Shown here in pieces: positions 39,354 to 62,538 of a stretch of DNA of 64,000 bases. The translations under genes were made by a program, and so were the position numbers. Positions within the stretch are counted from its first letter, which is position 1; every line of letters starts with the position of its first letter. The stretch lies in NCBI RefSeq assembly GCF_019669965.1, contig NZ_AP019781.1, positions 2,047,092 through 2,111,091 on the forward strand, in the 5' to 3' direction. The DNA is from Methanoculleus chikugoensis (GTDB lineage: Archaea > Halobacteriota > Methanomicrobia > Methanomicrobiales > Methanoculleaceae). Under the pieces are notes generated by a model, which saw nothing but the letters and a program-made list of their open reading frames with translations, did no database searches and was not told the DNA's origin.

Positions 39354-39438
39354 TGTTGAGGTAGCCAAGCCTGGTATGGCGCAGGTTTGCTAAACCTGTG
39401 TCCCCCTGGGACTCGAGGGTTCAAATCCCTCCCTCAGC
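39354..39438 (+). tRNA. tRNA-Ser (GCT anticodon)
   Basis: The acceptor GTTGAGG pairs with CCTCAGC (one G-T pair), the anticodon arm is CAGGT-TTGCTAA-ACCTG with anticodon GCT, a long variable arm (TGTCCCCCTGGGACTC) is present as expected for Ser, and the T arm is GAGGG-TTCAAAT-CCCTC. The discriminator base is G at 39438; CCA is not encoded. It lies just ahead of the ribosomal superoperon. Confidence 0.92.
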
Positions 39439-50092: not shown

Positions 50093-51058
50093 ATGACGAC
50101 GCTTGAAGACTATCTGGAGATGAATGCTGAGCGGATAGACAAAGCGCTCCACCGTTACTTTGGAGACGTCCACGGCGATCTCTTCCGGGCGAGCGCCCAC
50201 CTGCTGCTTGCGGGCGGCAAACGCCTCCGCCCGGCGGTCGTCATCCTCGCTGCGGATGCGGTGAGAAAGGGGAGCTCCGACGACCTGCTCCCTGCCGCCC
50301 TTTCGCTCGAACTGACCCACAACTTCACCCTCATCCACGACGACATCATGGACGGCGACGTCGTCCGGCGCGGCGTACCGACGGTGCATACGGTCTGGGA
50401 CGAACCGACGGCGATCCTTGCGGGAGACGTTCTGTACGCGAAGGCGTTCGAGTTCATCTGCCTCTCGGAAGCCACGGACGCCGCCAAGATCCGGGCGGTG
50501 AAGATGCTTGCCCGGACGTGCACCGATATCTGCGACGGGCAGAGTATGGATATGGCGTTCGAGAAGCGCGACGACGTTCTGGAGGTGGAGTACCTGGAGA
50601 TGGTCAGCAAGAAGACCGGCGTGCTCTACGGGGCATCCGCCGCCATCGGCGGGATCCTTGCCGGAGCGAACCCCGTCCAGGCCGACGCCCTCTACCAGTA
50701 CGGGGTGAACAGCGGCATCGCCTTCCAGATCCAGGACGATCTCATCGATCTCCTCGCGAGCAGCGACGCGAGCGGCAAGGACCGGGCGTCGGACATCCGG
50801 GAAGGAAAGCAGACCCTGATCGCCATCCGGGCACGGGAGAAGGGGATCGATCTCGCCCCATACCGGAGGAGACTCTCCGGTGCGGAGATCGACGACCTGA
50901 CCGCCCGGCTCCGGGAAGCCGGCGTCATCGACGAGGTCAGGGCGGTTGCCGTCGAGCGGGCCGCCGTCGCGAAAGAGGCGCTCTCGGTCATCCCGGACTC
51001 GGAGGAGAAACGTCTGCTCGGCGATATCGCCGATTTCTTCATCGCTCGAGGCAACTGA
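50093..51058 (+). CDS. idsA: trans-Polyprenyl diphosphate synthase (FPP/GGPP synthase)
   Basis: The 321-residue protein has GGKRLRPAVV, the first Asp-rich motif LIHDDIMDGD, and the second QIQDDLIDLLA. The chain-length region before the first motif reads TLIHDD with small residues that fit a geranylgeranyl product. It provides precursors for archaeal ether lipids. It starts 8 bases after the rnj stop. Confidence 0.95.
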   Translation: MTTLEDYLEMNAERIDKALHRYFGDVHGDLFRASAHLLLAGGKRLRPAVVILAADAVRKGSSDDLLPAALSLELTHNFTLIHDDIMDGDVVRRGVPTVHTVWDEPTAILAGDVLYAKAFEFICLSEATDAAKIRAVKMLARTCTDICDGQSMDMAFEKRDDVLEVEYLEMVSKKTGVLYGASAAIGGILAGANPVQADALYQYGVNSGIAFQIQDDLIDLLASSDASGKDRASDIREGKQTLIAIRAREKGIDLAPYRRRLSGAEIDDLTARLREAGVIDEVRAVAVERAAVAKEALSVIPDSEEKRLLGDIADFFIARGN

Positions 51059-51062
51059 TACT

Positions 51063-52748
51063 ATGGAGACCGATATCGAGCGCCTGCTCTTTATCTACGC
51101 TCTGCAGAACGCGGTGAAGCACGACAGCGCCCCGAAGAGCGGGACGGTCATCGGCACGGTGCTCGGCAAGCACCCGGAGTTCCGGAGCCGGGCCAAGGAA
51201 CTCGGCCCTCTTGCAGGGAAGGCGATCGCGGAGGTGGCGGCGATGAGCGCGGCCGAGCGTAAAAGCCGTCTTCTGGAACTCGCGCCCGAACTCGTTGCGG
51301 AACTCACCGAGACGCACGAGAAGTCGAGGGAACTCCCCGCACTCGAGGGTGCGGAGAACGGTGTGGTGATGCGGTTCGCGCCGAACCCGAGCGGGCCGCT
51401 GCACCTCGGGCACGCCCGCGCCTCCGTCCTGAACGACTACTACGTCAGGCGCTACGGCGGGCGATACGTCCTCCGCGTCGAGGATACCGACCCGAGGAGG
51501 GTCGATCCCGAGGCATACGCGATGGTCCTCGAGGACATCGAGTGGCTGGGACTCGGGATCACCGATATCGTCTACCAGAGCGACCGCCTCGATATCTACT
51601 ACGATTGGTGCAGAAAGCTCATCGAACTCGGCGGCGCCTACGTCTGCGTCTGCGACTCCGAACGTTTCCGCGAGCTCAAACTCAAGGGGAAGGCATGCCC
51701 CTGCCGCGAGCGGACGGTGGAGGAGAACCTGGAACTCTGGCAGAAGATGCTTGATGGGGAGTTCTACGAGGGCGACGCGACCGTCCGGGTGAAGACGGAG
51801 CTCGCTCACCCCGACCCGGCGATGCGGGACTACTCCGCGATGCGGATCGTGAACGCGCCTCTCCACCCGCGGGTGGAGAACACGGTCTTTCCGCTGATGA
51901 ACTTCTCGGTCGCGGTGGACGACCACCTGCTCGGGATCACCCACGTCATCCGCGGGAAGGACCACATCGCGAACACGCGACGGCAGCGTTACCTCTTCGA
52001 CTACTTCGGGTGGAAGCCGCCGGTCTACCGCCACTACGGCCGGATGGGGATATCGGGCGTCGTCCTCTCGACCTCGGGGATGCGCGAGGGGATCAAGAGC
52101 GGTCTCTACACCGGCTGGGACGACATCCACCTCGGGACGATGCGGGCGATCGCGCGTCGCGGTATCGAGCCGGAGGCCGTCCGGAACGCCATGATCGATA
52201 TCGGGATCGGGGAGACCGACATATCGTTCTCGTGGGAGAACCTGTATGCCCGGAACAAGGAACTCGTCGACCCGAAGGCGAACCGCTACTTCTTCGTCCC
52301 CGATCCGGTCGAGGTGACCGTCGAGGGCGCCCCGCGCCGCGAGGCGCACGCGGCGCTCCACCCGAGCGATCCCGCCCGGGGGGTCCGCACCCTCGTCGCC
52401 GAGGGGAGGATCCTCCTCCCGCGGGCGGATATCGAAGGGAAAAGCATGGTCCGGTTGAAAGACCTCTACAACGTCAGGATCGTGTGGGACGGCGATACGC
52501 CGCGCATATCCTACGCGGGCGACTCGCTCGAGGAGGCCCGGAGCGAGAAGGCGCCGATCATCCAGTGGCTGCCGGCGGACGCGAAACTCCCGTGCACGCT
52601 TCTGCAGCAGGACGGGAGCCTCGAAGGGTTCTGCGAGCCGCCGGTCGCCGGGGAGGCGGACCGCGTCGTCCAGTTCGAGCGGATCGGGTTTGCCCGGATC
52701 GACTCGGTCGAGGACGGCCGGGTGAGCGCGTATTTTGCGCACCGGTAA
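51063..52748 (+). CDS. gltX: Glutamyl-tRNA synthetase (archaeal type)
   Basis: The ATG at 51063 gives 561 residues. RFAPNPSGPLHLGHARASV is the HIGH region, VLSTSGMREGI stands at the KMSKS position, and the N-terminal helical domain (residues 1-90) and C-terminal beta barrel (from about 430) follow the archaeal/eukaryal class. It charges tRNA-Glu and probably tRNA-Gln, for later amidation. The C-terminal end VVQFERIGFARIDSVED recurs in a fragment at 59917-60141. Confidence 0.96.
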   Translation: METDIERLLFIYALQNAVKHDSAPKSGTVIGTVLGKHPEFRSRAKELGPLAGKAIAEVAAMSAAERKSRLLELAPELVAELTETHEKSRELPALEGAENGVVMRFAPNPSGPLHLGHARASVLNDYYVRRYGGRYVLRVEDTDPRRVDPEAYAMVLEDIEWLGLGITDIVYQSDRLDIYYDWCRKLIELGGAYVCVCDSERFRELKLKGKACPCRERTVEENLELWQKMLDGEFYEGDATVRVKTELAHPDPAMRDYSAMRIVNAPLHPRVENTVFPLMNFSVAVDDHLLGITHVIRGKDHIANTRRQRYLFDYFGWKPPVYRHYGRMGISGVVLSTSGMREGIKSGLYTGWDDIHLGTMRAIARRGIEPEAVRNAMIDIGIGETDISFSWENLYARNKELVDPKANRYFFVPDPVEVTVEGAPRREAHAALHPSDPARGVRTLVAEGRILLPRADIEGKSMVRLKDLYNVRIVWDGDTPRISYAGDSLEEARSEKAPIIQWLPADAKLPCTLLQQDGSLEGFCEPPVAGEADRVVQFERIGFARIDSVEDGRVSAYFAHR

Positions 52749-52759
52749 CGGTTCACATC

Positions 52760-52766
52760 TTTTTTT
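52760..52766 (+). terminator. T-rich terminator of the superoperon
   Basis: Seven T follow the gltX stop by about 11 bases, the usual archaeal terminator form. The following 270 bases to 53040 have no gene but hold an AT-rich stretch (about 52990-53020) that may be the NTPase promoter. Confidence 0.5.
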
Positions 52767-53040
52767 CTGCTACGGCCGCGCATGATGAGGCCGGCGATCT
52801 ATCGCTAGGACAACCCGTTTTGTAATGCTCATCGGAAAGAACATTGCGCGTACAGGATCGCAGAGTCTGCAGCACGGCACTCGATCCGCTGCAACTCTTC
52901 GATGCTGCCTGTTTTTCCCGAAGGAACCGGAATCATCGGGATATTTAAGTGACACCCGCAGATCGATATGCATATCATTCAGGATAGTGTGATCATGTAT
53001 TATTAATTGATGTGATTGTAAGAATTACCGGAGATCCTTC

Positions 53041-54087
53041 ATGAGCAGAATCTACGTGTTGGCGTCTCTCCCCGGCGCCGGAAAGACGACCACGGCGCTG
53101 TTGCTTGAGCGCCACTTCCTCGGGCAGGACCTACGGGTTGCCTGCCTGCAGCAGAACAAGGGGCAGTCCGACGTGCACACCTACCTCTCGGCCGGCTGCT
53201 GCCACTACACCGTGCCGCTCGAAGCGACGAAGAGCAGGGAGGCCTTCGAGCGATGGGCACCCCGGGGGTACGACGTCCTCATCATGGAGGTCACGTACCC
53301 GTACACGCCGTTCGGAGCCCCTTACCTCATCCCCTTCGATGCCTTCAACGAGGTTGTCCCGTTCGAAGCGCGTGCGGACTGGAAGAGTTTTGTCTTCACC
53401 AAGACGCTGGGTTACTGGAAGGAGTATCCCTCCGACACGAACTTCGATCCGACCGAACTGTGGGACACCGTCCACGACAGGACCGTGCAGACGATCGTCA
53501 CCAAAATTCCTTCGCCGCTCGATGGACCCTGCGTCGATACCGGGCGGGTCCTCCATCATCCGGAGAGGTTTGTCTGCGACACCGTCGAGCCGCGGATGAC
53601 GCTGCCGAAGAGTGACCGGGCCGTCATCGCCGTGGGGGCGTTTCCCGGGGAGTACCGGGAGATCTTCCCGAACCTGACATGGTACCGGTTCGACTACGCG
53701 TCCTTTCTGCAGGAGTTCCGGACGGGAACGTACGACGTCGCGATCATCGGTATGTGCCTGAACGAGCGTCTCAAATTCCGCGACCGGCCGGAACGGCCGT
53801 CGATCATCTGTTACCAGCCCTCCGTCTACTGCGATCTCGAGAAACATCCCAAAAATTTGCCCTTGAAGGATAACTTCGGCAGTATACTCTCGGCTATCCG
53901 CGAGCGGGCCGTGGGCGAACCCATCGTCCCCGAAGGAAGCGCCTACTCAGAGTACAACAACCGGTTCTGGACCTACCGGCCTTATCCAGAGAGGGAGATG
54001 ATCTGGCGGGAGGAAAACGTCGTCTTTTGCAACGGCTGGGTCCTGCCGCAGTACCTGATCCGCGAAGGATTCCTGGAGGCGGCGTGA
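53041..54087 (+). CDS. P-loop NTPase of unknown role (BioD-like)
   Basis: The 348-residue protein starts MSRIYVLASLPGAGKTTTAL (Walker A, residues 9-17) and has a strand VLIMEVTYPYTP at about residue 78 and FNP... segments with several Tyr/Trp. The fold looks like the dethiobiotin synthetase/CobQ type of P-loop ATPase, but no biotin or cobyrinate motifs are visible. It ends exactly where an Ig-module gene begins (no spacing), and a truncated second copy lies at 60441-60593. The biological partner is unknown. Confidence 0.6.
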   Translation: MSRIYVLASLPGAGKTTTALLLERHFLGQDLRVACLQQNKGQSDVHTYLSAGCCHYTVPLEATKSREAFERWAPRGYDVLIMEVTYPYTPFGAPYLIPFDAFNEVVPFEARADWKSFVFTKTLGYWKEYPSDTNFDPTELWDTVHDRTVQTIVTKIPSPLDGPCVDTGRVLHHPERFVCDTVEPRMTLPKSDRAVIAVGAFPGEYREIFPNLTWYRFDYASFLQEFRTGTYDVAIIGMCLNERLKFRDRPERPSIICYQPSVYCDLEKHPKNLPLKDNFGSILSAIRERAVGEPIVPEGSAYSEYNNRFWTYRPYPEREMIWREENVVFCNGWVLPQYLIREGFLEAA

Positions 54088-55562: not shown

Positions 55563-57275
55563 ATGGGAGGAGGAGGCAATCCGCCGGTGGTGACACTGGT
55601 CGAGCCGGAAGACCTGGACATCGGCGATCCTGTCGGAGCGGAGCGGCCGTTCACGGCATCGTGTGACCAGCCGGCGACGCTGACGGTGTACCTTGACGAC
55701 GAACCTGTCCACCAGAGCGATCCGGATGTCCAGGAGATGTCCTATACCTTCGAGAGCGCTCCGCTGGGAGAGCACATGGTACGGGTGGTCGCGGCGAATG
55801 CCAACGGCTCCGGGGAGAACTACTGGACCTGGAACGTGCTCTCGACGCCGCCGGTGGTGAGGAGGGTGAACCCTGCGGAGCAGGACGTCACCGATACCAT
55901 TCATTCGTTACGGCAATTTGAAGCATCATCCGATCAGACCGCGATCATGAAGATGTATGTAAACGGATTCCTTGTATCTGAGAGTGTATCCGACGTTCAG
56001 CATATATCCACCACTTTTGACAAGGCAGCCTTCGGGAATTATCGCATCAGAGTGATTGCAGAAAACACGAATGGTAGCGGAGAGACGACGTGGAACTGGC
56101 ACATACGATCGGCAGATCCACCAGTTGTATCCCTTATCCAGCCTGCTGCACAAGAGGTATCTGATCCTGTCGGTACATCACGTACTTTCCGGGTAACAAT
56201 CAATCAGCAAGCAAAAATAAAGTTCTATCTCGACGGACGACTTGTTCGTGAGACGGATGTATACTTCCCAAATACTCCCGTCACTTATACTAACAATTCT
56301 GCATCTGCCGGAGAGCATATCCTGTTGGTGATCGCCGAAAATTCGAACGGTAGAGGTACAAATTACTGGAGATGGCATTTGACGGCTCCTCCGGGGTGTA
56401 CGGAAGGGAAAACCAGATGTAGATGTTACGATCTCTATCGGTGCGTAAATGGTCATTTAGTACTTGAAGAACAAAATTCACCCTTATGCGGCTATCCAGG
56501 CCCACAGAGTGAAATGGTTGATGTAAATATATTCTATCATCCGCAAATGCCTACTTCAAGCTGCATGCGCATCACCTCACTCGAACCAATAATTATAACT
56601 ACTTCAGACTTTAAAACATGGGAAATATCCGGAAATCTGCATTTTCATGTGGAAAGAGACCCAAACAGGCTACCTAGGGAAGTAGAAGAATTAATTTTCA
56701 GATTATACTTTATTACCGGAGATCCACATGATACAACGGAATCCGGATACGTAACCTACAGCGAATCCATATCCAATATCATCCCAGATATGGAACCTGA
56801 CCCCTATTATGGACCTCTCGTGCAAATCAAAGAAGATAGAACAAAACGAGAAGATAGAATACTCAGAGAAATCGTTAAATCAGAGGATCAAATTGAACTG
56901 ATTACCGGAATCAAAGCAGGAGCAAAGGGGCACTTACTTGATCTTTCCATCTTTGTCAATTGGTTCTTATTAGACATATCGCATCGGCTCGAATTTGATC
57001 TTCATTTCACAATCACAACGACATTCAATACCAGACAACCAAATGCTTTTGCCAGGCTTTGGGCATATTCTGGTGAGGACGGGCCGATATACCGTATGTT
57101 GCTGAAAGCTGCAGATTGTGCAAATATGGTAGAGTCTTTACCTACACGAGGAAGCCCCATCTGGACAATCCTTCCGGTGTTGCTTAACATGTTTCAAGGT
57201 GGTGCCAATTTTGCTCGGGACGATTCGACCTATGAGGACATTCACCTCATAAGTGATGCTTACGAGGGCCAATAA
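55563..57275 (+). CDS. Ig-like module protein B with three modules and long unique tail
   Basis: The 570-residue protein begins MGGGGNPPVVTLVEPEDLD and has three Ig-like modules (residues about 1-97, 98-185, 186-277), each ending GSGENYWTWNV, GSGETTWNWHI or GRGTNYWRWHL. A Cys-rich knot follows (CTEGKTRCRCYDLYRCVNG) and then about 250 residues of unknown, AT-rich sequence. Only module 1 is near-identical to protein A; modules 2 and 3 are older copies. No signal peptide or anchor is seen. Its stop overlaps the TolB-like gene by one base. Confidence 0.65.
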   Translation: MGGGGNPPVVTLVEPEDLDIGDPVGAERPFTASCDQPATLTVYLDDEPVHQSDPDVQEMSYTFESAPLGEHMVRVVAANANGSGENYWTWNVLSTPPVVRRVNPAEQDVTDTIHSLRQFEASSDQTAIMKMYVNGFLVSESVSDVQHISTTFDKAAFGNYRIRVIAENTNGSGETTWNWHIRSADPPVVSLIQPAAQEVSDPVGTSRTFRVTINQQAKIKFYLDGRLVRETDVYFPNTPVTYTNNSASAGEHILLVIAENSNGRGTNYWRWHLTAPPGCTEGKTRCRCYDLYRCVNGHLVLEEQNSPLCGYPGPQSEMVDVNIFYHPQMPTSSCMRITSLEPIIITTSDFKTWEISGNLHFHVERDPNRLPREVEELIFRLYFITGDPHDTTESGYVTYSESISNIIPDMEPDPYYGPLVQIKEDRTKREDRILREIVKSEDQIELITGIKAGAKGHLLDLSIFVNWFLLDISHRLEFDLHFTITTTFNTRQPNAFARLWAYSGEDGPIYRMLLKAADCANMVESLPTRGSPIWTILPVLLNMFQGGANFARDDSTYEDIHLISDAYEGQ

Positions 57276-58479: not shown

Positions 58480-59916
58480 ATGGAACGAAAACACCTTCTT
58501 GCCGGAATCGCGCTTTTGGTTCTTGCGACGGGGGGCATCGTCGTCTGGACGGCCGGTCACATCGACAGTCTCCCGGGGAATTACTTCCTCTACGAACTTG
58601 GCGGGGAGTACGACTGCATGTACCCTTCCATCAGCCCGGACGGGACGAAGATCGTCTATGTTGCCACGATTTACCCCGACCAGCATTCATCCAATCTCTG
58701 GATCATGGATACCCGTACCTGGCATACCCGGCAGCTCACCTCCTGCGGGGACGTAGCACTTCGTCCGTACTGGAACCCATCGGGCGACATCATTGCCTTC
58801 TTAGCCGACCGGGACATCTGGACGATCGAACGCGACGGAAACAACCTCACCCGCCTCACGGCTGACCGGTCACTCGAACTGTGCCGCGGGTGGAGCCCTG
58901 ACGGGAAACGGATCGCCTACCTGTTAAACCGCTCCCTCTGGGTGATGGACACCGACGGAAGGAATACACAACTGGTCATTAACGGAACATCGGTGATATT
59001 TGACAACTTTCCAGTCTGGAGCCCGGACAGTGGGAGAATCGCCGTTTCATGCCCAGATCAAGTGACGACGACCGTTGACGGTGAGTTGATCGCGTACCAA
59101 AACCCACATGAAGGATTACTGGTCGTCAGGGTCGACGGAGGGGCGCACACCCTGCTTGAGGTCGGAGATTGCAGTCTGCCGGCATGGAGCCCCGATGGCG
59201 ACCGGATCGCGTACTTCTCCGCCGATGGCATCTGGACGGTTCACCCCGACGGCAGCGGGAACCGTAAAATCATCGACGATCGCGTCTTCCCCTCCGAAAG
59301 CCCAATGTGGCTGGCCTCAGGCGACAAGATCGCCTACCTTACGTGGGACAAGGAGATCAAGGTGGTAAACGCTGACGGAACCGGCGAGCGGGTGGTGACA
59401 TCGATAGGAGACGGCATCTCCTTTTCCGTCAGCGGGGATGGAAAACGGGTCGCATACAGCACTCTCGGCACGGTACGGCTGTCACGCATGGACAGCGTCG
59501 ACTGGTGTAAGCCGGTTGCTGCGGTTCTGGATATGGTGCGCCTGAAAAACCTGCATAAGAGGCCTGCGATATTCGCGGACCCCCCGCAGATAACGTTCGT
59601 CGAACCTGCAGAGCGCGTCGTCAACGATACGGTGGGAGGAAACCGGACGTTTACCGTTGCTTCCGATGAACCGGTCACGATGACGTTCTACCTGGATAGC
59701 GACGAACGGGTGTACCTGCGCGACGAGGGTGTCCGACAGGCGTCGTATACGTTTGAAAACGTCTCGCCGGGTGCGCATACGGTGGCGGTGTCCGTTGTCA
59801 ACGAGAGTTGGACACGCATGGGGACGACATGGCATTCATGGACGTGGCATGTGCTCCCCGAACAACCAATCGAACCGGGCGCCGAATCTGCAGATGAGGC
59901 GTCCTATCGAGGGTGA
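58480..59916 (+). CDS. TolB-like beta-propeller protein 2 with C-terminal Ig-like module
   Basis: The 478-residue protein is a paralogue of the preceding gene: anchor LLAGIALLVLATGGIVVWTA, then blades SPDGTKIVYVA, NLWIMDTRTW, WSPDGKRIAYLL, SLWVMDTDGR and WSPDGDRIAYFS. Unlike gene 1 it ends with an Ig-like module (residues about 366-460: PQITFVEPAERVVNDTVGG, YTFENVSPGAHTVAVSVVN, WHSWTWHV) of the type that heads proteins A and B. The GC content is higher than in gene 1. Confidence 0.82.
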   Translation: MERKHLLAGIALLVLATGGIVVWTAGHIDSLPGNYFLYELGGEYDCMYPSISPDGTKIVYVATIYPDQHSSNLWIMDTRTWHTRQLTSCGDVALRPYWNPSGDIIAFLADRDIWTIERDGNNLTRLTADRSLELCRGWSPDGKRIAYLLNRSLWVMDTDGRNTQLVINGTSVIFDNFPVWSPDSGRIAVSCPDQVTTTVDGELIAYQNPHEGLLVVRVDGGAHTLLEVGDCSLPAWSPDGDRIAYFSADGIWTVHPDGSGNRKIIDDRVFPSESPMWLASGDKIAYLTWDKEIKVVNADGTGERVVTSIGDGISFSVSGDGKRVAYSTLGTVRLSRMDSVDWCKPVAAVLDMVRLKNLHKRPAIFADPPQITFVEPAERVVNDTVGGNRTFTVASDEPVTMTFYLDSDERVYLRDEGVRQASYTFENVSPGAHTVAVSVVNESWTRMGTTWHSWTWHVLPEQPIEPGAESADEASYRG

Positions 59917-60141
59917 ATGAATATGGGCTGTAGAACGGTATGGTCTCCAGCGCGGACGTTCACGGCATCGTGTGACCAGCCGGCGACGATGCGGGTGTAC
60001 CTGGACGGCGACCGCTCCGGGGCCTGCGAGTCGCTGGTCGTCGGGGAGGCGAGCAACGTGGTTCGGTTCGAACGGGAGGGGTTCGCCAGGATCGATGCGG
60101 CGACGAGAGACGGTATGGTGGCGTACTTCGCACACCGTTGA
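59917..60141 (+). pseudogene. Chimeric fragment: Ig-module piece joined to a GluRS C-terminus
   Basis: A 74-codon frame reads RTFTASCDQPATMRVYLDGD, which matches the middle of Ig module B, followed by VVGEASNVVRFEREGFARID and AYFAHR, which matches the end of GluRS encoded by gltX (VAGEADRVVQFERIGFARID, AYFAHR). The stop is followed after about 11 bases by a T run, as after gltX. It cannot encode either full protein, so it is a recombination product. Confidence 0.75.
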
Positions 60142-60293
60142 ACCCCGCACCCTTTTTTTCCACAGTACATCTCTACCGCGAATATCTGCACCGGCGGACC
60201 GGGATTGCTGATGCCATGGAGCACTGCGTGCAGAGGGCCGCCGAGCCCCTTTGGTACGGCAGGCAGGGAAGATTCGATATAACTGCCGCCATC

Positions 60294-60335
60294 GAACCGA
60301 TAAAACCGAATTGCGAACCGATAAAACCGAATTGC
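60294..60335 (+). repeat. Two perfect 21-base tandem repeats
   Basis: The unit GAACCGATAAAACCGAATTGC occurs twice in a row. It lies in the region (60142-60440) between the chimeric fragment and the NTPase remnant, where I see no gene. Confidence 0.85.
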
Positions 60336-60440
60336 CCCAAGACTACGGGAGGCATCCGGATCGACATGCTTTTATCCGATTATTGGTATAATCACATGCT
60401 AATATCCTTCACTATCGTGTTATGTGATCGGTGGATCTTC

Positions 60441-60593
60441 ATGAGCCGTATCTACGTGATTGCAGCGGTCCCCGGTACCGGAAAAACGACAACGGCGATG
60501 CTGCTCGAACAGTACTTCCACGGGCAGGCAACGGCGAACAGGCTCAGTAGAACGGGAATTCCGCGAAGTGCATTATGGTCATCATTCTCCTGA
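60441..60593 (+). pseudogene. Truncated copy of the P-loop NTPase
   Basis: The frame reads MSRIYVIAAVPGTGKTTTAM then LLEQYFHGQ, matching the first 29 residues of the NTPase at 53041 (MSRIYVLASLPGAGKTTTAL, LLERHFLGQ). After about 60528 the match stops and the frame ends 22 codons later. The bases before the ATG (GATC-TTCATGAGC) also match. The rest of the gene has been lost. Confidence 0.8.
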
Positions 60594-60871
60594 AGGGGAC
60601 TGCGGAGCAGGAGTCCGGAACTCATGACGAGTCAGTACAGGGTTTCACATGCCCACATTGCGGGCGCAGGAGTAGGGAGTTTCGCTCCATCTGTCCGGAG
60701 TGCGGCCGTCCGTTCATGCGGGATTACATCGACTGGCGGATGCACCCCCGTGACCCGGAACTGCGGGGAACATGGTATTACAATCGGTTCTGGGCACGGG
60801 TCTGGCTGGTGCTTATGATCCTCGGACTGGCATTTTCGGTGCTGGTGATGGCCATCCGGGCACTGGATTGA
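60575..60871 (+). CDS. Small zinc-ribbon membrane protein
   Basis: The 98-residue protein has a zinc ribbon (CPHCGRRS and CPECGRPF, four Cys, residues about 25-45) and a C-terminal helix (VWLVLMILGLAFSVLVMAIR). The ribbon probably faces the cytoplasm. It overlaps the NTPase remnant by 19 bases in another frame. No family beyond the zinc ribbon is clear. Confidence 0.65.
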   Translation: MVIILLKGTAEQESGTHDESVQGFTCPHCGRRSREFRSICPECGRPFMRDYIDWRMHPRDPELRGTWYYNRFWARVWLVLMILGLAFSVLVMAIRALD

Positions 60872-61086
60872 GCCCGAGGAGCCATGAAATAATCTATCGC
60901 TCTACTTCAGTCTGCAATGTAGGGTGTGGATTGCACCGGGTGATAGTCAGGGTGAGAGGACGAGCAGGCACCGCTACCTCAGGAGATGATATACACGAGA
61001 GGTCGTGTGTCTCGGCTGAGGTTAACAAAGACTTCGCCGGGGGTGGCTACGTGGAGATAACGGGAGTCTATGTGAAGGAGCGCTGA
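60870..61086 (+). pseudogene. Possible gene remnant
   Basis: A frame open through this stretch ends HRVIVRVRGRAG...VSAEVNKDFAGGGYVEITGVYVKER with coding-like strands, but no start codon with a ribosome binding site is present. It may be the tail of a lost gene. The stop is one base before the next ATG. Confidence 0.3.
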
Positions 61087-61087
61087 A

Positions 61088-61783
61088 ATGCCGATCGATG
61101 AGATGTCGGGACGCCTCTTCCGGAACCTCCGGAAGTTGTTGTTCCACCCGTTTCAATTCTTCGAGAGCATGCCGGAGCATCCGCGCCTCCTGCCGCCGCT
61201 GCTCCTCATACTGGGTATCTGCCTGGTGCGGAGCGTATGGTATTCCCAGGTGCTCGCAGATTACATGGTACGACTGCTCGAAGGAAGCAGTTTTCCCACC
61301 GGCGGGTTTGCGCTCTGGTCGATGGTACTGCTCACGATCGGCCCCGCCATTCGCTGGGTTCTCGTTGCTGGCATTGTCTTCGCGATATCAGCTCTGCTTC
61401 GCGGAAAAGGGTCTTTCTCCCAGCTTTTCGCGTACACAGCGTATGGTCTCCTTGTGGGATATATGATCAGTCTTATTCAGGCAATCTTCAGCGTTCTCGC
61501 CGGACGACAGATCATGCATGAAGTGTCTCGTTTGATGATGGGCTCTGGCTACCTCTCTTTCCCAAATCTCGCTACAGATCCCACGATAGCAGTATTCTGG
61601 ATGGTCTTCTGGTTAATAGGCACCATCGGCTTTGTATGGACGTTCATTGTCCATGTCGCAGCCACCCAGTACGGCAGATATATCCCTCGAACGCATGCAC
61701 TTCTCACCGTTATTCTGGCGTTCGTCTGTATGTATGGCGTGGTATGGATGCAGGTGCTATTCGTTCGACATATAATAACATGA
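61088..61783 (+). CDS. Yip1-family membrane protein
   Basis: The 231-residue protein begins with an amphipathic start (RLFRNLRKLLFHPFQFFESM) and then five hydrophobic helices, with PEHPRLLPPLLLILGI and LFAYTAYGLLVGYMISLIQA, typical of Yip1 domain proteins. The function in prokaryotes is unknown. It is the only apparently intact gene between the NTPase remnant and the amber-interrupted Ig copy. Confidence 0.75.
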   Translation: MPIDEMSGRLFRNLRKLLFHPFQFFESMPEHPRLLPPLLLILGICLVRSVWYSQVLADYMVRLLEGSSFPTGGFALWSMVLLTIGPAIRWVLVAGIVFAISALLRGKGSFSQLFAYTAYGLLVGYMISLIQAIFSVLAGRQIMHEVSRLMMGSGYLSFPNLATDPTIAVFWMVFWLIGTIGFVWTFIVHVAATQYGRYIPRTHALLTVILAFVCMYGVVWMQVLFVRHIIT

Positions 61784-61819: not shown

Positions 61820-62173
61820 ATGAAGGGGCAAGAGAGATGTGAGACTGAGGGAGGAGAACCCCCGGTGGTGACTCTGATCAACCCGGCAGGCCCCGGCATC
61901 GGCGACCCCGTCGGGATGGAACGAATGTTCACAGCGACATGCGACTAGCCAGCGACAACGGGAGTTTACCTCAACGGCAACCCGAGACATACGGAGCGAA
62001 CCGGGCGTCCGGGAAGCGCGTTCCGGTTTGAACGGTTTATTGTCATCGTCGGGAAGGCGATCCGGGCATCGATGAGGCTGGTGAAAGAACCCCTGTGTTA
62101 CCCCGACCAACGGGTACGATCACAGTTTAGCAGTGCGGGTACTGAAACGGATCCACGTTTTGAAACGGCCTAA
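61820..62173 (+). pseudogene. Ig-module copy interrupted by an in-frame TAG
   Basis: The frame from ATG 61820 reads GGEPPVVTLINPAGPGIGDP then VGMERMFTATCD, followed by TAG at 61946-61948, then PATTGVYLNGNP. In copies A and B the codon at this place is CAG (Gln of CDQ), so a single C-to-T change made the stop. The continuing frame holds FRFERF, reminiscent of the GluRS tail, and stops at 62173. Without read-through it is dead. Confidence 0.7.
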
Positions 62174-62538
62174 ACCCTGACGAATCGTCCGGCAGGCGGG
62201 ACACCGGGTCGGGAAATTCCCGCCATACTGCCGGTGAAAAGGGTTGGCAGCCGCTCAGGCAGGGTACACCGCCGCATCCCGTTCGGCCGCCGTGATCTTC
62301 TGCAGGAGGCCAGCAGAGAGGTCGGCGATCGGGTAGTACCCGCCGCCGGCATGTTCCGCGACGACTCTGCAGTAGCCCAGCCGGAACTCCAGAAAAGTTT
62401 TGCGGTTCCTTTCTCGCCACGGATGAGCACGCCGCCGATCCCCGGATTAACGGCATTGAGAATGAGCGCACGTTTCATTGTCTCCTGACCGACAATAGCG
62501 GTGAACGGAAGGACACTCCTTCGCGCCGAGTATGACAT
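62170..62538 (-). pseudogene. N-terminal fragment of a magnesium chelatase ATPase (ChlI/BchI-like)
   Basis: The first 45 residues ([20 protein letters not shown], then [18 protein letters not shown] with Walker A) match the start of ChlI-type AAA+ proteins. After the P-loop the frame turns into unrelated sequence ([15 protein letters not shown]), and the remaining 300 residues are missing. It is a broken gene, convergent with the amber-interrupted Ig copy. Confidence 0.7.

Follow-up and report, generated by a model that had tools for sequence, protein, structure and literature searches.

A worn second gltX tail in Methanoculleus chikugoensis as a probable scar of foreign DNA behind the glutamyl-tRNA synthetase gene

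The window analysed here is a stretch of 64,000 nucleotides from Methanoculleus chikugoensis (contig NZ_AP019781.1, positions 2,047,092 to 2,111,091), in which the glutamyl-tRNA synthetase gene (gltX) and the P-loop NTPase gene behind it are followed, some 7.4 kb downstream, by a worn second copy of their junction. This fossil is probably the left-boundary scar of foreign DNA that entered behind gltX together with its donor's gltX tail, spacer and truncated NTPase start, the gltX 3′ end being a recurrent entry site in the order; we hold this reading with fair rather than high confidence. The genome of the window (G000) is a single contig, and the archaeal order was sampled with 232 genomes.

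The repeated gltX–NTPase junction

The fossil at 60003–60528 repeats 52607–53128, from the end of gltX through the terminator and the spacer to the start of the NTPase (Table 1), as a homologous block of ~525 bp whose two copies are offset by 7,393 nt at the gltX half and 7,400 nt at the NTPase half. Comparison of 52000–53800 with 59400–61100 by BLASTN gives two collinear plus/plus matches, one at the gltX end (52631–52744 with 60024–60137; 74% over 117 columns, E 1e-13) and one at the NTPase start (53037–53128 with 60437–60528; 78% over 92 columns, E 2e-17). The spacers are 292 nt (resident) and 299 nt (fossil) long. Global alignment of one with the other scores at z 3.3–4.1, with none of 300–500 shuffles as good, and the fossil spacer also aligns with the gltX–NTPase spacer of the relative G014 (global z 6.8, local z 8.3); the scores indicate that it is homologous to gltX–NTPase spacers and is not random filler. 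A collinear second copy of this junction had been proposed by a sequence-only reading, and the two BLASTN matches and the spacer homology bear it out, the similarity reaching well beyond the short motifs on which the proposal was based (spacer z up to 8.3). The two gltX tails end in different stops, TAA in the resident and TGA in the fossil; the fossil T run (T7) lies at 60153–60159, and the stub ORF opens with the ATG at 60441. Within the fossil spacer, 60293–60334 form a 21-base tandem repeat whose unit contains GATAAAACCGAATTGC; G003 has a single unit.

To its left, the fossil gltX tail is fused in frame to ~20 codons of an Ig module, as the same reading had recognised when it described a fossil with its GluRS part joined to an Ig-module piece. 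The junction of the two lies within ~60003–60014, where they have a short sequence in common, GGACGGCGA.

Table 1. Features of the resident gltX–NTPase junction, the fossil and their surroundings (window coordinates)
Feature	Position	Strand	Remarks
Resident gltX, glutamyl-tRNA synthetase	51042–52748	+	Borders the variable region on its left
Stretch of resident gltX matching the fossil tail	52607–52748	+	Stop TAA 52746–52748
Resident spacer with T run	52749–53040	+	83% to G014 over most of its length
P-loop NTPase, full-length counterpart of the stub	53041–54087	+	Of no known family; unmatched in Pfam, PADLOC and PDB
PD40 beta-propeller protein with C-terminal Ig module	58480–59916	+	Adjoins the fossil on the left
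Piece of an Ig module, reading in frame into the fossil gltX tail	59952–60011	+	90% to 55643–55702, 91% to G014:C41
Fossil gltX 3′ tail, probably foreign	60003–60141	+	Stop TGA 60139–60141
Fossil spacer	60142–60440	+	From ~60233 common to G003:C37, from ~60397 to G014:C41
NTPase stub ORF	60441–60593	+	29 NTPase-homologous codons up to 60527, unrelated ones after them
Small zinc-ribbon-like membrane protein gene	60575–60871	+	Follows the stub in G003 and G014 as well, 97% conserved
Yip1-domain membrane protein	61088–61783	+	After the stub unit in all three genomes (window genome, G003, G014)

The right half of the fossil has a history of its own. The stub, the bases upstream of it and the zinc-ribbon and Yip1 genes after it form a unit that is common to contig C37 of G003 (94% identity from 60233 on) and contig C41 of G014 (87% from 60397 on). 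All three left borders of this unit differ: a gltX tail precedes it in the window genome only, the end of a PD40 gene in G003 and other sequence in G014:C41. Since the unit stands without a gltX tail in G003 and G014, the fusion of the NTPase start to the zinc-ribbon gene is older than its present position.

That either of the two ORFs, the 74-codon fusion or the stub, should be a functional small gene or leader is very improbable. In its favour, both frames are open in the window genome, and the stub ORF, which G014:C41 has intact, overlaps at its end (60593) the start of the conserved zinc-ribbon gene (60575); yet the fused tail exists in one genome only, and the G003 stub has lost both its ATG and its P-loop lysine and is therefore not maintained there.

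The full-length NTPase (53041–54087; L091–L107) is present in only 17 of the 232 genomes of the order and has no match in Pfam, PADLOC or the PDB. In several members of the genus it is found near Ig-module, PD40 and Yip1 genes, an uncharacterised gene set that is apparently mobile. Further to the right, 62170–62538 on the minus strand is the truncated start of a ChlI/D-like AAA gene, a full paralogue of which lies at 75284–77287 (extended coordinates); G003 retains ~1.7 kb of related sequence at this site (C37:3107–4841), so the window genome probably lost it.

Codon pattern and ancestry of the fossil tail

The sequence-only reading took the block for a segmental duplication with later decay, meaning that an ancestor copied its own gltX end, spacer and NTPase start ~7.4 kb downstream, where the copy then wore away. 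A collinear block of ~525 bp with spacers of nearly equal length is what such an event would leave, and a gltX–NTPase adjacency is otherwise known only in this genus. The codons of the tail speak against it, their pattern being that of a functional gene and not of pseudogene decay. In the 19 most conserved codons, fossil and resident differ at 14 bases, 10 of them third positions, with only 2 amino acid changes; simulated neutral decay of these codons gives a mean of 8.8 changes, and 0 of 20,000 runs were as low as 2. The whole tail of 38 codons has 15 amino acid differences against 21.3 expected under neutral decay (P ~0.0007–0.001), weakening to P 0.05 when the genus tail of G012 is used, and this whole-tail test would not be overwhelming if taken alone. 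So few amino acid changes against the neutral expectation point to a tail that diverged mostly inside a working gltX elsewhere. We conclude that most of the divergence probably arose in a functional gltX of another lineage, and that a few relaxed changes (Q to R, I to E) would have come after it.

Comparison with other gltX genes points the same way, at lower resolution. The proteins closest to the fossil tail lie outside the genus, in G153 (71%) and G037 (68%), against 61% for the gltX of the window genome itself. The fossil ending IDAATRDGMVAYFAHR is without the register typical of the genus (IDSVEDGRVSAYFAHR and similar) and resembles sequences from outside it. A phylogeny of the GluRS tail had been suggested as a check on resident or foreign origin; in the best trees the fossil falls outside the clade of the genus, with protein support of 94/94 on 38 residues, and AU tests on the same 38 residues reject neither a genus or local origin (p 0.15–0.37) nor a grouping of the fossil with its own gltX (p 0.15–0.21), these sites being too few for trees to settle the matter.

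Local duplication thus keeps the tolerance of the AU tests, the collinearity and the genus-limited adjacency on its side. Against it stand the codon pattern, the greater nearness of the tail to gltX outside the genus, and G003 and G014, which carry the older stub unit and, like every other relative, have no such gltX tail at this place; extra gltX tails in three further genomes (below) add to these. We regard it as unlikely. What survives of the earlier claim is the collinear repeat, its fossil nature and the fusion to an Ig piece; a local origin followed by decay is probably wrong.

Foreign origin, the reading we prefer, calls for a donor. None with such a gltX–NTPase junction was found in the 232 genomes of the order, and a scan of genome contigs for the Ig–gltX fusion gave no donor. 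Relatives of the NTPase were absent from viral contigs and similar DNA from phage records, and a plasmid search returned a single distant Natrinema match (36% identity). As the NTPase is known beside gltX only within this genus, a donor close to the genus is indicated.

Over its final 195 bases (52551–52745) the resident gltX is 90.8% identical to G003, the closest relative of the window genome, compared with 97.0% for the preceding 3 kb (P 8e-5), possibly through an exchange there in one of the two genomes. Recombination inside the resident gltX was set aside as main evidence, because a change in G003 could explain it.

The gltX stop as a variable boundary and extra tails elsewhere

Synteny in the genus is kept up to gltX, and at 14 of the 15 compared loci of relatives that include gltX, homology ends at the stop or no more than ~20 bases from it; G014 is the exception. 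The ancestral downstream block, made up of a gene for a small membrane protein and the DNA after it, stands ~0.05–1.2 kb after gltX in G010, G034, G009, G013, G006, G011, G026 and G031, ~4.7 kb after it in G014 and ~6.8 kb in G004. In the window genome the first downstream gene block of G004 is reached at ~90786 (window coordinates), 38 kb from gltX. The comparison indicates that in this genus the gltX stop forms a variable boundary, with inserted cargo of 0 to ~38 kb; as in additive flexible genomic islands, the cargo differs from strain to strain and its position is conserved. Behind gltX in the window genome this cargo includes CobN, ChlI/D, ABC transporters, a PilB3-like ATPase, its membrane partner and pilins. 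A tRNA gene as insertion target was rejected, as none lies near the boundary (the tRNAs of the window are only at 39355 and 43139, with none in L041), and so is an RNA element, there being no Rfam match.

Extra gltX tails are present in G003, G192 and G043. In G192, a complete genome from another family, gltX is followed by 7.0 kb of cargo, a 397-bp second tail and then normal downstream DNA, which is shared with G193 and G194; cargo and tail stand exactly between gltX and that DNA. At the resident gltX end, G192 and G193 have 62 of 63 bases in common. A different patch is present in the extra tail, and the 28 terminal bases of the two tails are identical. G043 represents a third family; its insert measures 0.9 kb and its second tail 190 bp. 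In this second tail 16 of 19 changes are at third positions and the last 60 nt are nearly identical to the resident. The second tail of G003, on C37, spans 125 codons at 87% nucleotide identity to the window gltX. Of its 53 differences from the gltX of G003 itself, 30 fall on third positions, and it begins (from 23075) where synteny with the G000 island breaks (83430–84620 = C37:21880–23065). The cargo of G192 (L127 7835–13630) encodes a radical-SAM/DUF5131 protein, its partner and a 1177-aa AAA protein with a RyR domain; the first two have weak matches to PADLOC candidate defence models.

The resident gltX is complete in G000, G003 and G192, and that of G043 is cut by a contig end. The extra tail is on the same strand as gltX and downstream of it in G000, G192 and G043; synteny suggests the same for G003, where C37 would join the gltX contig, a link drawn by inference since both contigs end in the region. 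The common pattern is a resident gltX that keeps its end and an extra tail at the far side of the cargo or inside it. The window genome does not keep the clean arrangement of G192: the fossil is followed by the stub unit and not by ancestral downstream DNA, so at least one further insertion or deletion would have come later. A short terminal repeat of the gltX target is eroded in the window.

These ends also bear on site-specific integration, in which a tyrosine or serine recombinase would have taken the last bases of gltX for its attachment site, much as genomic islands use tRNA genes or dusA, and its gene would later have been lost, a special case of foreign insertion with the same scar. A boundary placed precisely at the gltX stop would suit it, as would the 28 identical terminal bases in G192 and the nearly identical last 60 nt in G043. 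We nevertheless think it improbable: the island holds no PF00589 integrase, the only one found by a whole-genome search being ~1.2 Mb away (C1:869269); neither of the two PF00589 matches in G192 adjoins its insert; the island proteins tested include no recombinase; and extra tails of 190–400 bp exceed the usual length of an attachment site.

Second tails in G047, G077, G125 and G164 were left uncounted on account of contig ends, split genes or weak matches. Two control searches were uninformative as to the hotspot reading, by which gltX would be exceptional among core genes for scattered tails: the GGPP synthase tail, searched at a stricter cut-off, gave 2 second matches, both in draft genomes, and the IPP isomerase tail was swamped by paralogue-like second matches. 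Among G085, G089, G092, G110 and G111, three relatives that belong to a single genus have one in-frame TAG in the C-terminal portion of type 2 IPP isomerase; G110 and G111 have one in-frame TAA there.

Possible routes of entry and their meaning

In the reading that we favour, a foreign block bearing the donor's gltX 3′ tail, its spacer and an already truncated NTPase start would have entered behind gltX. Incoming DNA would recombine with the gltX tail or beside it and keep the resident gltX intact, and the surplus donor tail would be stranded inside the insert or at its edge, downstream of gltX and on its strand. Further arrivals and deletions would then have grown the region to ~38 kb and left the tail 7.4 kb from gltX, joined to the Ig fragment. 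The exchange may have been homologous between gltX tails, or have had one homologous and one illegitimate end. We infer the entry by transfer, the order of events and the recombination route; the sequence GGACGGCGA shared by the Ig and gltX parts is too worn to prove the last of these.

Known systems resemble this arrangement in part. Like the additive flexible genomic island fGI1 of Alteromonas, which grows by cassette addition at a tRNA, the region would collect cargo cassettes at one conserved chromosomal place, with a length that varies between strains; unlike fGI1 with its conserved tRNA target, it uses a protein gene and leaves foreign gene tails behind (PMC4119200). The dusA islands likewise target a conserved stretch of a core gene, one that encodes a protein of tRNA metabolism, and leave repeats of that stretch, but they are integrase-borne and use the dusA 5′ end with attachment sites of 21–28 bp (PMC4482086), whereas here no integrase was found and the repeated tails, of ~40 codons to 400 bp, are from the 3′ end. 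In homology-facilitated illegitimate recombination, a homologous anchor combined with an illegitimate end of few shared bases would strand a foreign tail; a review describes this as shown experimentally in transformable bacteria (PMC6382021). For these archaea it would be a candidate route, the junction being too worn to prove it. Titles and the beginnings of abstracts yielded no archaeal paper on gltX as an island site, which is no proof of novelty.

More speculatively, the gltX tail could be a mobile homology arm in methanogens: cargo flanked by such tails would move by tail exchange with no recombinase of its own, and stranded tails would record its arrivals. We put this forward tentatively and think it rather unlikely.

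On the favoured reading, the end of gltX would mark a point of entry for foreign genes into methanogen chromosomes, with instances from three or more families within a single order. Worn tails of core genes may then be read as boundary marks of past insertions, and they would offer a handle on how DNA enters archaeal chromosomes without an integrase.
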